The notes under the pieces: model-generated
Databases searched by the model: none
Told to the model about the DNA's origin: nothing
Seen by the model: the letters and a program-made list of their open reading frames with translations, nothing else
Made by a program: the position numbers and the translations under genes
Shown: in pieces, positions 20,151 to 47,973 of the stretch
Layout of the letters: every line of letters starts with the position of its first letter
Position numbering within the stretch: position 1 is the first letter of the stretch
DNA from: Alphaproteobacteria bacterium
Lineage (GTDB): Bacteria > Pseudomonadota > Alphaproteobacteria > Caulobacterales > Parvularculaceae
Length of the DNA: 64,000 nucleotides
Reading direction: 5' to 3'
NCBI GenBank assembly: GCA_030433215.1
Contig: JAUIMC010000005.1
Span: forward strand, 62,001 to 126,000

Positions 20151-20957
20151 ATGAGATTTTTTGCGTATATCGCCGCATCCTGCCTTGTCTTTTCGGGGAC
20201 CGCCGCCGCCCAGCTTTCAGGCGCGGGCGACGATCCGGAAGATATCGCCCGGGAGCTCGAAACCGCGAATACGGCGACGGACAGCGGCGTGGCCGATCCC
20301 TGGGAGGGCTTCAACCGCAAGATGTTCGCCCTCAATGACGGCCTCGACCGGAATCTCATGGTGCCGGCGGCCAAGGCCTACAGGACCGTCACCCACAAGA
20401 AGCAGCGCAAGGGCATCCGGAATTTTCTCTCCAATCTCAGAACCCCGGTCACGCTGGTGAACGACATCCTGCAAGGCGAGTTCGGCCGCGCCGGAGAGAC
20501 CATGGGGCGCTTTGTCATCAACTCGACCATCGGCTTCGGCGGCATGGGCGATCCGGCCGAACGGCTCGGCATCGAACAGCACTCGGAGGATTTCGGCCAG
20601 ACGCTGGCGGTCTGGGGAGTCGATTCCGGCCCCTATCTGGTGCTGCCCTTTTTCGGCCCCTCCACCTTGCGCGACGGTTTCGGCTCGGCGGTGGACCTGA
20701 CGACCGATCCGGCGTTCTGGATCCGCACCGATCCGGCCATGTATTACCGCTTCTCGCGCGCCGGCATGAATGTCGTCAGCGCGCGCGAACCGCTGATCGA
20801 ACCGCTTGCGGACATCAAGATGGATTCCCTCGATTATTACTCGTCCCTGCGCAGCTTTTATCTGCAATCGCGCAAGCGCGAGATCTTGAACGGCCGCACC
20901 AATTTCGAAGACCTGCCGGATATCGGCGAGTTCGAAGAATTCGACGACCTTGAATAG
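20151..20957 (+). CDS. mlaA: MlaA/VacJ family outer-membrane lipid asymmetry protein
   Basis: 268 aa. MlaA removes mislocalised phospholipids from the outer leaflet and passes them to MlaC. Family blocks are present: DPWEGFNRKMFALND, NFLSNLRTPVTLVNDILQG, GRFVINSTIGFGGMGDPA and GPYLVLPFFGPSTLRD. The signal peptide (1-21) ends AAAQ with a signal peptidase I style site; I see no good lipobox, whereas classical MlaA is a lipoprotein. The C terminus is acidic. mlaC follows after 28 bases. Confidence 0.93.
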   Translation: MRFFAYIAASCLVFSGTAAAQLSGAGDDPEDIARELETANTATDSGVADPWEGFNRKMFALNDGLDRNLMVPAAKAYRTVTHKKQRKGIRNFLSNLRTPVTLVNDILQGEFGRAGETMGRFVINSTIGFGGMGDPAERLGIEQHSEDFGQTLAVWGVDSGPYLVLPFFGPSTLRDGFGSAVDLTTDPAFWIRTDPAMYYRFSRAGMNVVSAREPLIEPLADIKMDSLDYYSSLRSFYLQSRKREILNGRTNFEDLPDIGEFEEFDDLE

Positions 20958-20985
20958 ATTTGTGAGTTCAGGAGGAGCCCAAGTC

Positions 20986-21609
20986 ATGCGCACCCTCGCC
21001 CGCCGTTTCGTTTTCCGCATCGCCGCCGCCGCCGCGTTCTGTTTCGCCGCGCAGCCGGCTTTCGCCGACCAGGCCGCGGAAGACTATGTTCAAACCATTC
21101 TCGACGAAGCCGAACCTGTTCTTTCGACCGACGATCACCAGTCGATGCTCGACGGCGTTGAAGATCTGGTCGACAAATATGTGGACATGCGCCGCATCGG
21201 CCGCTTCGTGCTCGGCCAGTATGCGCGGCGGATGACCGAAGCGCAGGAAGAACAGTATTATCCGCTATTCAATCGCTATGCGAAAATGATCTACCGCAAT
21301 ACGCTTTCCGATTATGCGGGCGAACAGATCAAGGTCACCGGCTCCGTCGACCGGTCAGAACGCGACATAATCGTCAATTCAAAACTCGCCAACCCCGAAC
21401 CCGGCAGCGCTTACGCCAACACGGTCATTCACTGGCGCGTCTATCGCAGCCGCGACGGTGAGATGAGCGTCGTCGATGCGGGCGCGGATAATGTCTGGCT
21501 CGCCATCGAACAGCGCAGCCAGTTCGGTTCGATCATCGCCAATAATGGCGGCGGCGAGAAAGGCGTTGACGCGCTGATCGCCGAAATCAAGTCGCGCGTC
21601 GACGGCTAG
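20986..21609 (+). CDS. mlaC: MlaC/Ttg2D family periplasmic phospholipid-binding protein
   Basis: 207 aa with a signal peptide (about 1-27, cleaved after AFA). It contains the MlaC pattern VDMRRIGRFVLGQYARRMT and WRVYRSRDGEMSVVDAGADNVWL. It shuttles phospholipid between MlaA and the inner-membrane MlaFEDB complex, whose genes are not in the window. GGAGGAG is 8 bases before the ATG at 20986. A terminator follows. Confidence 0.92.
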   Translation: MRTLARRFVFRIAAAAAFCFAAQPAFADQAAEDYVQTILDEAEPVLSTDDHQSMLDGVEDLVDKYVDMRRIGRFVLGQYARRMTEAQEEQYYPLFNRYAKMIYRNTLSDYAGEQIKVTGSVDRSERDIIVNSKLANPEPGSAYANTVIHWRVYRSRDGEMSVVDAGADNVWLAIEQRSQFGSIIANNGGGEKGVDALIAEIKSRVDG

Positions 21610-43313: not shown

Positions 43314-43405
43314 GTGTCATGCCCGGGCCCGTCCCGGGCATCCAGCGTTCTAGGCGCCGTCTTTCCATAACGACTGGATCGCCGGGACAAGCCCGGCGAT
43401 GACAC
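43314..43405. repeat. dispersed palindromic repeat, family A, copy 2, inside the nad operon
   Basis: GTGTCAT...ATGACAC ends with two hairpins (GCCCGGGCCCGTCCCGGGC and GCCGGG-ACAAG-CCCGGC) and ATCCAG/CTGGAT flanking a 28-base centre longer than in copy 1. The right end, ATGACAC, includes the nadB start codon at 43399. Confidence 0.85.
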
Positions 43406-44949
43406 AGTCAAATAACGACATCCTCATCATCGGCGCAGGCGTCGCGGGGCTCTACACGGCCCTGAAACTGGCGCCCCGTCCCGTCACGGTCGTCACCGCG
43501 CGCCCGCTCGGCAAGGGCGGCGCGACGCCATGGGCGCAAGGCGGGCTCGCCGCCGCCGTCGGCCCGAACGATACGCCGAACCTTCACTTCTCCGACACCA
43601 TGCAGGCGGGCGCCGGACTGGTCGATCCGGAAGCGGCGCACCTTCTCGCGCTCGGCGGACCCGCGGCGGTCGAAGATTTGCTCCGCATGGGCGTTAAGTT
43701 CGACACGGATGAAGACGGCAATCTCAAACTCGGCCGCGAGGCCGCCCATTGCCGCGACCGCATCGTTCACGCCACGGGCGACCAGGCGGGTGCGGCCATC
43801 ATGAAGGCGCTGATCGACGCGGCGCGCCGCGCCGAGCACATCACCATCCTTGAACGGATCGTCGTCGAAGATCTGCTGACCGACGACAATGGCGTCGTCA
43901 GCGGCGCGCTCGTCTATGACGTCGATGCAGGCGAACGCGAAGCCTATGAATTCGGTGAAACCGTGCTCGCGACCGGCGGGCTCGGCGGGCTTTACGCCGT
44001 CACCACCAACCCGACGCCGGCGCAAGGCCACGGGCTCGCCTTCGCGGCGCGCGCCGGCGCCATCATTCGTGATCCGGAATTCGTGCAGTTTCACCCGACG
44101 GCGCTCAATATCGGCGCCGACCCCGCGCCGCTGGCGACCGAGGCCCTGCGCGGCGACGGCGCGCGGCTCGTCAATGCGGACGGAACGCCTTTCATGGAGC
44201 GCTATCATTCGGGCGGCGACCTTGCGCCGCGCGACATCGTCGCCCGCGCCGTGGAGACGGAGATCAAGGCCGGGCGCGGCGCCTTTCTCGATGCGCGCGA
44301 GGCCATCGGCGCGACGTTCCCGGACGCTTTCCCGACCGTGTTCGCCGCCTGTCAGTCGGCCAAGATCGACCCGCGAACCGATTTGATGCCCGTCGCCCCG
44401 GCGGCCCATTATCACATGGGCGGGGTCGAAACCGATCTCGACGGGCGCGCCAATGTGGAAGGCCTGTGGGCCGTGGGCGAAGTCGCCTCCACCGGGGTTC
44501 ACGGCGCCAACCGCCTCGCCTCCAATTCACTGCTCGAAGCCATCGTCTTCGGCGCGCGCATCGCCGACCAGCTGCGCGACGCGGAGATCGACGCGCCCGA
44601 CGGCGCCGGCGCGCCGGGCGACCGCATGGAGCTGCCGTCGAAACCCGCGCCCGCCGCAGACATGGCGAAGCTGCGCGCCGCCATGAGCGAGCATTGCGCG
44701 TTGATCCGCAATGGCGAAGGTCTCGCCGATCTTCTCGACATCGTGCACGAGATGCAGGAAAGCCCGGACCTCACCAGCGGCCTCAAAAGCGCGCTCGTTA
44801 CGGCCGAACTCATCGCGCAAGGCGCGCTCGCCCGCGAGGAATCGCGCGGCGGCCATTTCCGCAGCGACTTTCCCGAGACCGACAGCGAGCCCTATCACAC
44901 GGAAATCGCCGCGACGCATGTTTACGACGATGAAGAGGAAGATTCATGA
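43399..44949 (+). CDS. nadB: L-aspartate oxidase
   Basis: 516-aa FAD enzyme making iminoaspartate from L-aspartate for NadA. FAD motif DILIIGAGVAGLYTALKL at residues 7-24, GGLAAAVG, GLWAVGEVASTGVHGANRLASNS with the catalytic region. The only standard start before the FAD motif is the ATG at 43399, the end of the repeat element; no Shine-Dalgarno is seen, so translation may depend on readthrough or structure. The C terminus (DDEEEDS) is acidic. Its stop overlaps the nadC start by 4 bases. Confidence 0.96.
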   Translation: MTQSNNDILIIGAGVAGLYTALKLAPRPVTVVTARPLGKGGATPWAQGGLAAAVGPNDTPNLHFSDTMQAGAGLVDPEAAHLLALGGPAAVEDLLRMGVKFDTDEDGNLKLGREAAHCRDRIVHATGDQAGAAIMKALIDAARRAEHITILERIVVEDLLTDDNGVVSGALVYDVDAGEREAYEFGETVLATGGLGGLYAVTTNPTPAQGHGLAFAARAGAIIRDPEFVQFHPTALNIGADPAPLATEALRGDGARLVNADGTPFMERYHSGGDLAPRDIVARAVETEIKAGRGAFLDAREAIGATFPDAFPTVFAACQSAKIDPRTDLMPVAPAAHYHMGGVETDLDGRANVEGLWAVGEVASTGVHGANRLASNSLLEAIVFGARIADQLRDAEIDAPDGAGAPGDRMELPSKPAPAADMAKLRAAMSEHCALIRNGEGLADLLDIVHEMQESPDLTSGLKSALVTAELIAQGALAREESRGGHFRSDFPETDSEPYHTEIAATHVYDDEEEDS

Positions 44950-45791
44950 CCGCCCGCCTGTCCCCGCTGCTGGTTGAAGACGCCGTCGCGCGCGCGCTCA
45001 AGGAAGATCTTGGCGACGCCGGGGACATCACCACCAATGCGACCATCCCGGCGGCGGCAAACGCAAAGGCTGTCATCGCGGCGAGAAAGCCCGGCGTCAT
45101 TGCGGGCGTTGACTTAGGGCTTGCCGCCTTCCGCCTCGCCGACCCGGCCATTCGCGTTTCCATCGAGAAAGACGACGGCGCGCGCGCCCAAAAAGGCGAC
45201 GCCGTTCTTTCTATCGAAGGACCGGCGCGCGGCGTTTTGTCCGCCGAGCGGGTCGCGCTCAACTTCATGGGCCATCTTTCCGGCATTGCGACGGCGACAG
45301 CCGCGCTTGTAGATGCAGTCGAGGGCACAGGCGCGAAAATCGCCTGCACGCGCAAGACGACGCCCGGCCTTCGCGCCTTTGAAAAACACGCCGTCCGCTG
45401 CGGCGGCGGGCACAATCACCGTTTCGGGCTCTATGACGCGGTGATGATCAAGGACAATCACATCGCCGCCGCCGGCGATATCGCCAAAGCCCTCGCCGCC
45501 GCGCGCGCCAGCGTCGGCCATATGGTGAAAATCGAAATCGAGGTCGACGGTCTCGAGCAGCTTGAAGAAGCGCTTGCGAACGGCGCCGATGTTGTCCTGC
45601 TCGACAATATGGCGCCGGCGGATCTGAAACGCGCCGTCGCCATCAACAAAGGCCGCGCCGTTCTCGAAGCCTCAGGCAATGTCACGCTCGAGACCGTGCG
45701 CGCCATCGCCGAAACCGGCGTCGACGTTATCTCTTCGGGCTGGATCACTCATTCCGCGCCGACCCTCGATCTCGGTCTTGATTTTCTCTGA
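44946..45791 (+). CDS. nadC: nicotinate-nucleotide diphosphorylase (carboxylating)
   Basis: 281 aa. Quinolinate phosphoribosyltransferase, third step of de novo NAD synthesis. Conserved TRKTTPGLRAFEKHAVRCGG, HNHRFGLYDAVMIKDNH, IEIEVDGLEQLEEAL and the C-terminal SSGWITHSAP are present. ATGA overlap with nadB indicates translational coupling. The tail-sheath-like gene starts 45 bases after its stop. Confidence 0.97.
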   Translation: MTARLSPLLVEDAVARALKEDLGDAGDITTNATIPAAANAKAVIAARKPGVIAGVDLGLAAFRLADPAIRVSIEKDDGARAQKGDAVLSIEGPARGVLSAERVALNFMGHLSGIATATAALVDAVEGTGAKIACTRKTTPGLRAFEKHAVRCGGGHNHRFGLYDAVMIKDNHIAAAGDIAKALAAARASVGHMVKIEIEVDGLEQLEEALANGADVVLLDNMAPADLKRAVAINKGRAVLEASGNVTLETVRAIAETGVDVISSGWITHSAPTLDLGLDFL

Positions 45792-45836
45792 TCCATGCTA
45801 GGCTCGCGCCTAATCGCGTCATCAGGGGGAGACTGA

Positions 45837-47096
45837 ATGAACCGCATCCGCAAAGTCAGCCGCCGGCTGTTTCTCGGCGGCCTCGCCTCGGGCGCCGCAA
45901 CGCCGCTCTTCGCGCAATCCACTATCAAAAAGCCGGCGCCCGACCTGCCCGGCGCCAGGCGCCCCGCCGCCAAATCGCGCGCGCTCTCGCCGGGCGTCTA
46001 TGTGGAGGAAATCCCCTCCGGCGTGCGCCCTATCGCGGAACCGGAAACCTCCGCGACGCTATTCATTGATGTTTTCGGCGGCGCTGACCTTGCGACCGTG
46101 ACGAGCCTTTCGGAATTCCAGGCGCAATTCGGAACGCTTCCCGGCGCCAGCGAAGCCGCGCTCGAAACCGTCACGCTCTATTTCCGCAATGGCGGCCGCA
46201 AGGCGTTGATCGCCAGCGTCGGCGACGCCAGCATGGCTTCCCTTCTCGGCGCGCCGGGCGCGGGCGGCCTGCGCGATCTTATGGATGCGCCGGCGCTCGG
46301 GATCGATTTTATCTGCATCCCGCCCGCCGCCGCGCTGCCGGTTGCGGACGCGGCAAGCGTTTATGCGGAGGCGCTTTTGCTGGCCGAGGCGCAAAAGGCG
46401 ATGCTGTTCCTCGATGCGCCTGTGGCGCCGGCTTTCAACGCCAGTGAGATCGTCACGGACTGGCGCGGCGCGCTCGGCGTCAATCATGCGAACGCCGCGA
46501 TGTATGCGCCGCGCCTTGAGGCCGCCGGCGTCGTGCCAACGCTTTCGGCAAGCGCCGCAGCCGCCGGGATCGCCGCGCGCATCGACGCGGCGCAGGGCGT
46601 CTGGAAAGCGCCGACCGGAACCGGCGCCGTTATCGCCGGCGCAACGGCCGCCGCCGCGCTCACCCCCGCCGATACGGAAACGCTGACCCGGGCGAACATA
46701 AACGCCGTGCGCAACCTGTCCGGCCTCGGCGACGCCGTCTGGGGCGCGCGCACGCTCTCGACCGAGGCCGAATGGAAATATCTGCCGGTGCGCCGCACCG
46801 CGCTTTTCATTGAGAAAAGCCTCGACGCGGGGATGCAATGGACCGTGTTCGAACCCAACGGCGAACCGCTCTGGGAACAGATCGAAATGGCGGTCGGAAC
46901 TTACATGCAGTCGCTTTTCCGCAAGGGCGCCTTTGCGGGCGCAACGCCGCGCGAAGCCTATTTCGTGCGCTGCGACCGCTCGACGACAACCCAAGCCGAT
47001 ATCGACCGGGGCGTCTGCAATCTCGAGATCGGGTTTGCGCCCTTGAAGCCTGCGGAATTCATCCTCATCCGCCGCACGCTGCGAACGGCCCCTTAA
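45837..47096 (+). CDS. phage tail-sheath-like protein with twin-arginine signal
   Basis: 419 aa. Residues 1-26 are a Tat-type signal: SRRLFLGGLASGAATPLFA (SRRxFL core). After it, SPGVYVEEIPSGVRPI (about 50-65) and the C-terminal FEPNGEPLWEQIEMAVGTYM, RKGAFAGATPREAYFVRCDR, DIDRGVCNLEIGFAPLKPAE are the conserved N- and C-terminal segments of contractile tail sheath proteins (phage_sheath_1 family). The middle is Ala-rich and shorter than in phages. No tube, baseplate, spike or other phage gene is nearby. GGGGAG precedes the ATG. Function unknown; export of a folded sheath-like protein to the periplasm is inferred. Confidence 0.9.
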   Translation: MNRIRKVSRRLFLGGLASGAATPLFAQSTIKKPAPDLPGARRPAAKSRALSPGVYVEEIPSGVRPIAEPETSATLFIDVFGGADLATVTSLSEFQAQFGTLPGASEAALETVTLYFRNGGRKALIASVGDASMASLLGAPGAGGLRDLMDAPALGIDFICIPPAAALPVADAASVYAEALLLAEAQKAMLFLDAPVAPAFNASEIVTDWRGALGVNHANAAMYAPRLEAAGVVPTLSASAAAAGIAARIDAAQGVWKAPTGTGAVIAGATAAAALTPADTETLTRANINAVRNLSGLGDAVWGARTLSTEAEWKYLPVRRTALFIEKSLDAGMQWTVFEPNGEPLWEQIEMAVGTYMQSLFRKGAFAGATPREAYFVRCDRSTTTQADIDRGVCNLEIGFAPLKPAEFILIRRTLRTAP

Positions 47097-47126
47097 AACC
47101 GGCGTGCAAGCATCCTGAACGCCGCT

Positions 47127-47822
47127 TCAAGGCGAAAGGCTAATCGTCACCGCCAGGATGTGATCGAACTTGTCGGCGCCGGAGACCGGTTCGTACTGGT
47201 TGATATAGCCGGCCTCGACGCTCGCCGCTTCCGTCAGGTCGAAACCGACGCCAACCCTGCTGCGCAACCTTTGAAGTCCGCTTTCAGCGCCCCAGTCCGT
47301 GTCATTGAGATAGAAAAAGCTCTCGCCGGAACCGTAGACATAGACGCTTTCGCTCACCGGCAGCGTCGCCTTGATTTCATTGCGCGCGCGCCACCCGACA
47401 TCGTCCCCGGTGCTGAAAAAGCGTTGCTCGATACGGGCGCGCAAGGCGATGGTCACATCGGAACCCGTCTCCGGCTTCCAGACAAGTTGTTGCCATAGCC
47501 GGTTTTCATGAGTGTCGGGCGCATTCTCGATATTCGAGATCATGTGGCCATAGCCAAATCCGGCCGTGAAATCTTTTCCAACCTTGCGCGAGAGCAGCGT
47601 CTTGAGCTGCGTCTCTGTGTAACGCCTCAAATCGTCGCCGAACCGGCCTTCAGCCTCGACCTTCAACGCCCAATCCCTGTTCAGGTTCAGTTTCGCGGAA
47701 GTTGCGAGCCAGGCCTTGGCTTCATGCTCGGCGGCGCGCGCCGGCGCGACGGCGGTGAAACCGGCCATTGCGCACACAAGAACGCCGACAAGACCAAAGG
47801 GGGCGTGAAAAATACTCTTCAT
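47127..47822 (-). CDS. DUF2490 family outer-membrane beta-barrel protein
   Basis: 231 aa. Signal peptide (about 1-30, cleaved after ARA), then alternating amphipathic strands with WLATSAKLNLNRDWALKVEAEGRF, ENRLWQQLVWKP and RARIEQRFF, typical of DUF2490. It ends in VTISLSP rather than a terminal aromatic residue. The function of the family is unknown. I chose the ATG at 47820-47822 so that the signal is N-terminal; a GTG 20 codons upstream is also open. Convergent with the tail-sheath-like gene (30-base gap). Confidence 0.85.
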   Translation of the reverse strand: MKSIFHAPFGLVGVLVCAMAGFTAVAPARAAEHEAKAWLATSAKLNLNRDWALKVEAEGRFGDDLRRYTETQLKTLLSRKVGKDFTAGFGYGHMISNIENAPDTHENRLWQQLVWKPETGSDVTIALRARIEQRFFSTGDDVGWRARNEIKATLPVSESVYVYGSGESFFYLNDTDWGAESGLQRLRSRVGVGFDLTEAASVEAGYINQYEPVSGADKFDHILAVTISLSP

Positions 47823-47856
47823 AAGGACTTTTATTCGCCCGAACAGGCAGGCGCAT

Positions 47857-47879
47857 TTTGTGCGCCTATACAGCACAAA
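47857..47879. promoter_or_regulatory. inverted repeat upstream of the DUF2490 gene
   Basis: TTTGTGC-N9-GCACAAA, perfect 7-bp arms, 35 bases upstream of the chosen ATG in a short intergenic region. It has the form of a dimeric repressor/activator site but fits no consensus I know (it is not the CRP/FNR spacing). Confidence 0.4.
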
Positions 47880-47973
47880 CAAAAATCAATGTCGAGAGCA
47901 GAAAAAATATCGTTTGAAGCGAGCCTGAAGCCGCCGGCTTGCAGCCGCGAGGCGAGACTACATCGCCGCCAGA

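Follow-up and report, generated by a model that had tools for sequence, protein, structure and literature searches.

A solitary contractile-tail sheath protein with a predicted twin-arginine leader in the order Caulobacterales

Introduction

How does the sheath of a contractile tail come to carry what looks like an export signal, with no tail around it? The question is raised by one gene in a 64,000-nucleotide stretch of an alphaproteobacterial genome of the family Parvularculaceae (contig JAUIMC010000005.1, positions 62,001 to 126,000; hereafter the window). The gene, at 45837..47096 on the forward strand, is an intact open reading frame (ORF) of 419 amino acids with an ATG start. Every contractile tail or injection system known to us is assembled in the cytoplasm, around a tube that stands on a baseplate. 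A first-pass annotation had read the product as a lone tail sheath with a twin-arginine translocation (Tat) signal, and had suggested that a folded sheath sent to the periplasm would be a new use of this fold. The proposal is supported by the full sheath fold, the recurrence of the leader, the presence of TatC, the failure to find a tail locus and the signs of purifying selection. Sequence comparison points to an exported-type sheath that is genuine, under selection and recurrent, though rare; its fold is known, and its place and company would be new.

A complete sheath fold

The sheath resemblance, originally noted for the C-terminal third, is real and covers nearly the whole predicted mature protein. 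Pfam profiles PF17482 (1.1e-8; 35.5 bits against a curated cut-off of 26.9) and PF04984 (8.7e-8; 32.6 bits against 31.4) both matched, PHROG 23 "tail sheath" aligned with residues 47-412 (7.5e-45), and solved injection-system sheaths matched from 1.1e-48, with 32% identity over 323 aligned residues to chain 2A of 9gts. The Pfam domains are Phage_sheath_1 (subtilisin-like; residues 155-307, 46299..46757, +) and Phage_sheath_1C (residues 310-412, 46764..47072, +). Profiles and a structure model agree that the sheath core fold is present, the model resting on an alignment of ten rows, with residues 1-61 below 50 in predicted local distance difference test (pLDDT) score. Both arm motifs are also present, namely LSPGVYVEEIP at the N terminus (residues 50-60, 45984..46016, +) and GFAPLKPAEFILIRR at the C terminus (residues 399-413, 47031..47075, +). 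Their PGVY and PAEF cores are invariant in the alignment of the ten Tat-type sheaths described below, and would serve the interlocking of subunits.

A leader that recurs across the order

The protein begins with MNRIRKVSRRLFLGGLASGAATPLFA-QS (leader residues 1-26, 45837..45914, +): a basic start, SRRLFL, an uncharged hydrophobic stretch, and LFA followed by Q at the putative cut. This satisfies a Tat rule of our own making, which asks for a twin arginine, an uncharged hydrophobic stretch and a cleavage-like site. The rule was also satisfied by 98 of 2000 shuffles of the same N terminus, and by two of the 66 window genes; the second of these, at 20950-21609, has a more Sec-like (general secretory) leader. 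Taken alone, the window leader is only suggestive. It becomes convincing because nine other sheaths in the order carry a comparable leader and no scored control does. The annotated Tat signal stands as a sequence-based prediction.

When the window protein alone served as query, relatives were recovered in 8 of 100 kin genomes, window genome included; six of these eight relatives start with a Tat-type leader. Profile searches of 398 genomes of the order detected sheaths in 31, and in ten of these a Tat-type leader is possible (G000, the window genome, and G014, G023, G041, G045, G059, G186, G210, G313 and G348). These ten were chosen by eye for their leaders, so that their unanimous score in leader scans is by construction and the contrast with the rest is the finding. 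They are spread over three families. The twin arginine and a leucine three residues on are invariant, while other leader positions differ. TatC was found in all ten genomes, window genome included.

Control ORFs were scanned from any start codon for a Tat leader ahead of PGVY. None was found in 15 scorable of 19 other ORFs of the order, 15 of 28 in loci of the class, 77 of 82 in 80 named GTDB loci, or 143 of 166 in 80 viral loci, which overlap, so that the 143 are not all distinct. The unscorable ORFs (4, 13, 5 and 23, respectively) had no recognizable PGVY. The GTDB loci were the best 80 of 549 relatives from a second scan with alignment A4, a first scan with the window protein alone having returned no relative; the viral loci were the best 80 of 116. 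The leader reading left out those genome matches for which no separate locus had been extracted, such as G358:C4, G172:C45 and G140:C24. A looser scan passed 1 of 19, 1 of 28 and 1 of 82 control ORFs, against none in the stricter PGVY-based scan: the matches in L026 (behind PGVY) and L099 lie inside the chain, and in L190 the RR falls immediately ahead of the point where the sheath itself begins. The nearest methionine stood 5-7 residues before the PGVY motif in 73 of the 82 GTDB ORFs. In a phylum sample, sheaths were found in 32 of 398 genomes, again counting the window genome, and longest ORFs read by eye gave no Tat leader among 24 visible N termini of 26 loci (L295 and L299 showed no N terminus; L300 was a locus already encountered). 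Among the sets scored, then, the exported-type sheath appears confined to this order.

Selection and history

Compared with G023, where the gene occupies the same locus, the ratio of nonsynonymous to synonymous substitution rates (dN/dS) was 0.22 for the sheath, 0.07 for nadA, 0.14 for nadB and 0.09 for nadC. Amino acid identity was 89% in residues 1-27, 37% in the linker and 75% in the core. The linker itself (residues 27-51, 45915..45989, +) is poorly conserved and of low pLDDT. These values indicate that the sheath is under purifying selection.

A quick tree calculated with leaders removed, and with 46 self-chosen leaderless rows (12 from the order, 14 from the class and 20 of the 80 GTDB loci), needed five changes between leadered and leaderless labels, two of them forced by well-supported branches. 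It carries warnings for eight rows of odd composition and for three long terminal branches (L036 and, among the Tat rows, G059 and G041, the last joined to G186 and G210). Tat-type sheaths fell into one group of the short kind, to which the window protein belongs, and another of a longer FPNSVV kind. On this tree, then, the leader was gained or lost more than once; the forced changes could be either, leaving repeated gain unproved.

Tail genes elsewhere

The absence of tail genes nearby, part of the first-pass annotation, was borne out within 64 kb for a second sheath and for a tube; tail ATPase and other tail families were not searched. Genome-wide profile searches found one sheath only and no tube by PF06841, phrog_4542 or profile A2, although the first two also matched none of 14 control genomes. 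Two baseplate families, gp25 (PF04965) and Phage_base_V (PF04717), were missing from all ten Tat-sheath genomes, window genome included, by searches that matched 2 of 14 controls, and no second tube or sheath was seen near any of the ten genes. Within the reach of PF06841, phrog_4542, PF04965, PF04717 and profile A2, a tail locus elsewhere in the window genome was thus rejected; these profiles cover neither further baseplate families nor the ATPase. The assembly is 98% complete in 37 contigs, so these absences are not absolute.

Three of the ten genomes (G014, G059 and G045) encode tail-tube homologues (PF06841) behind Sec- or Tat-type leaders, two of them in tandem in G059. For the G014 and G045 tubes and the second G059 tube, the start was picked inside the longest ORF. 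In none of the three genomes do sheath and tube share a contig. Every genome with a full exported tube is a Tat-sheath genome (3 of 3, against 10 of 398; hypergeometric 1.2e-5, or 4.5e-5 if a half tube is counted as a miss), figures that are uncorrected for kinship and come from a profile built from the same tubes. Second tubes in injection loci L067 and L068 have an uncharged N-terminal run without a basic start and were not counted as exported.

The half tube belongs to G012, of the same genus: a 291-amino-acid protein (L194:3718-4593, -) with a Sec-like leader and half a gp19 tail-tube domain at its end (PF06841, 4e-7; 7adz chain 1a, 2.2e-12). No sheath was found in G012 by the profile search of the order. 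In G014, at L191:5560-10564, the tube with a Sec-type leader sits behind a receptor-like gene, so named by eye, and genes for DUF6607 and DUF4198 proteins. G314 encodes a leaderless tail-tube protein (L064:1492-2055), and the order profile search found no sheath there.

Proposed explanation and alternatives

We judge it on balance probable that the window protein is a stand-alone contractile-tail sheath turned Tat substrate, assembling as a polysheath-like polymer outside the cytoplasm. The monomer would fold in the cytoplasm and be carried, already folded, through the Tat machinery by its twin-arginine leader. Signal peptidase would then cut after LFA, and the mature sheath would keep its N-terminal arm motif. 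Using both arms, mature subunits could interlock in the periplasm or at the cell surface, giving a tube or lattice like a polysheath. Conceivably, the uncut leader hinders assembly before export. The retained end motifs and the leadered tubes of three relatives make a periplasmic polymer our best bet as to product. In G014, G059 and G045 the assembly may comprise sheath and tube, and in the window genome a sheath without one. Since gp25 and Phage_base_V occur in none of the ten genomes, a structural polymer is probably to be preferred to an injector. That sheath (by Tat) and tube (by Sec or Tat) both moved out of the cytoplasm, perhaps repeatedly, to form a previously undescribed baseplate-less extracytoplasmic filament, sleeve or spring is put forward tentatively; no tube was found in 7 of the 10 genomes, and a sheath-tube assembly therefore cannot be general.

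Several points weigh against the polymer. No tube is detectable in the window genome or six others of the ten, and presence is patchy (10 of 398 genomes). For G023, G210, G313 and G348, the start codon adopted is internal to the longest ORF. The putative cut site is LFA rather than AxA, and cutting there would leave 25 residues before PGVY, more than in the usual sheath. Residues 1-61 are modeled at low pLDDT from only ten rows, and folding could by itself explain why the arm motifs are kept. Export, cleavage and polymerization are each predicted from sequence.

The alternative that survives best, which we consider rather unlikely, is that the exported sheath fold acts as a monomer or small oligomer, as an envelope binding or scaffold protein, and that the three tube homologues are independent exported proteins. 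It would account for the seven genomes without a tube, for the separate contigs of sheath and tube in all three double carriers, and for the G012 half tube, which behind its Sec-like leader cannot be an ordinary tube. Against this stand the invariance of PGVY and PAEF and the restriction of full exported tubes to Tat-sheath genomes, with the kinship caveat given above.

Anchoring of the sheath to the membrane by an uncut leader is improbable. The window protein and G023 do share LFA-Q with no AxA site before PGVY. An AxA cut would, however, leave 5-7 residues before PGVY in four of the ten (G014, where a second site leaves 9, G045, G059 and G348), 9 in G041 and G186 and 14 in G210, that is, 5-14 in seven of ten; G313 has sites at 28 and 11. 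The linker behind the leader also varies freely. About as little probability attaches to an injection machine that is complete though scattered and is put together outside the cytoplasm, its baseplate being too divergent to see. Profile searches may overlook rapidly evolving baseplate genes, those made here covered just two baseplate families, and leadered tubes do occur in three genomes, with two in tandem in G059; yet those two families scored 0 of 10 with searches able to match controls, and the ten genes have no second tube or sheath nearby. Finally, an ordinary prophage or injection-locus remnant with a start that is Tat-like by chance is very improbable and was rejected. In its favor, phages and injection systems do contain sheaths, single leaders when shuffled meet the rule in 0.45 to 10% of cases, and two genomes of the order (G320 and G374) carry short or degenerate pieces of sheath. 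Against it, leaders recur in ten species and in no scored control ORF, the window leader is 89% conserved, dN/dS is 0.22, the ORF is intact, and three species keep the same nadC locus.

The G320 piece (L053:2714-3079) is a degenerate sheath start behind a Sec-like leader, after which sheath similarity is lost and a stop follows.

Genomic context

As first annotated, the sheath gene begins 45 bases past the stop of nadC (44946..45791, +). Upstream of nadC lies a flavoprotein gene (43399..44949, +) that we take, from gene order, to be nadB-like. The order nadB-nadC-sheath is common to the window genome, G023 and G014, and cotranscription with nadC is plausible given the short gap, the shared strand and the kept order. 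A ribosome-site-like GGGGGAGA can be read at 45825..45832 (+), 4 bases 5' of the sheath ATG; it also precedes the G023 sheath start, and GGGGAAGA precedes that of G014. A scan of 45500-47400 found no sigma-70-like promoter (shuffles average 0.2), and two terminator-like sites were scored around the gene, where shuffles give 2.7. The convergent neighbor (47127..47882, -) encodes a DUF2490 protein and is not a tail gene.

When neighbors were tabulated across the Tat-sheath genes, as had been suggested, no shared partner emerged, and those identified were otherwise unrelated. Tat-sheath genes adjoin nadC (one locus in three species), ribF (G059) and ribD (G045) (loci including L011 and L013). This adjacency to NAD and flavin synthesis genes is a post hoc link and possibly chance.

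Comparison with known systems

Short sheaths without a Tat leader were also encountered. L119:9902-11068, L086 and L087 share a basic N terminus, MALKQVVRWMRSMTR; L119, from a Sphingomonadales metagenome-assembled genome (MAG), has no tube match in 21 kb. L113:4983-6128, a short leaderless sheath from a Gammaproteobacteria MAG, has none in 10 kb. Solitary sheaths may be commoner than thought.

Injection-system sheaths lack a leader and are encoded together with tube and baseplate. The window protein resembles the one-domain sheaths of such systems (the Streptomyces coelicolor contractile injection system, 8bky/9gts; AFP; PVC) and that of R-type pyocin in its whole core fold and both end motifs, and differs from injection-system sheaths in its Tat leader and in having no tail gene found beside it. 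Likewise, the PF06841 tubes of G014, G059 and G045 share the fold of injection-system tubes, whereas they follow Sec- or Tat-type leaders and lie away from the sheath gene.

Typical Tat cargo consists of cofactor enzymes. The window protein has the layout of a Tat substrate (n-RR-h-A) in a genome with TatC, and differs in that its cargo is a sheath; literature searches on exported, solitary or incomplete sheaths turned up no sheath among Tat cargo. A folded sheath monomer is a reasonable cargo, since a free monomer has been crystallized in a pre-assembled state, according to the title of structure 6gkw. If the reading is right, this is a new class of Tat cargo.

The state proposed for the window protein is closest to the polysheath, in which a sheath polymerizes without other tail proteins. 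Lone recombinant sheath gp053 of phage FV3 forms tubes (PMC6357053), and the role of sheath N-terminal arms is a subject of PMC10811340. The gp053 tubes are a recombinant product, whereas the window protein is natural and predicted to be exported. It would, if so, represent a natural sheath assembly uncoupled from the baseplate and, in most of these genomes, from the tube, with the sheath lattice serving as building material of the cell envelope.
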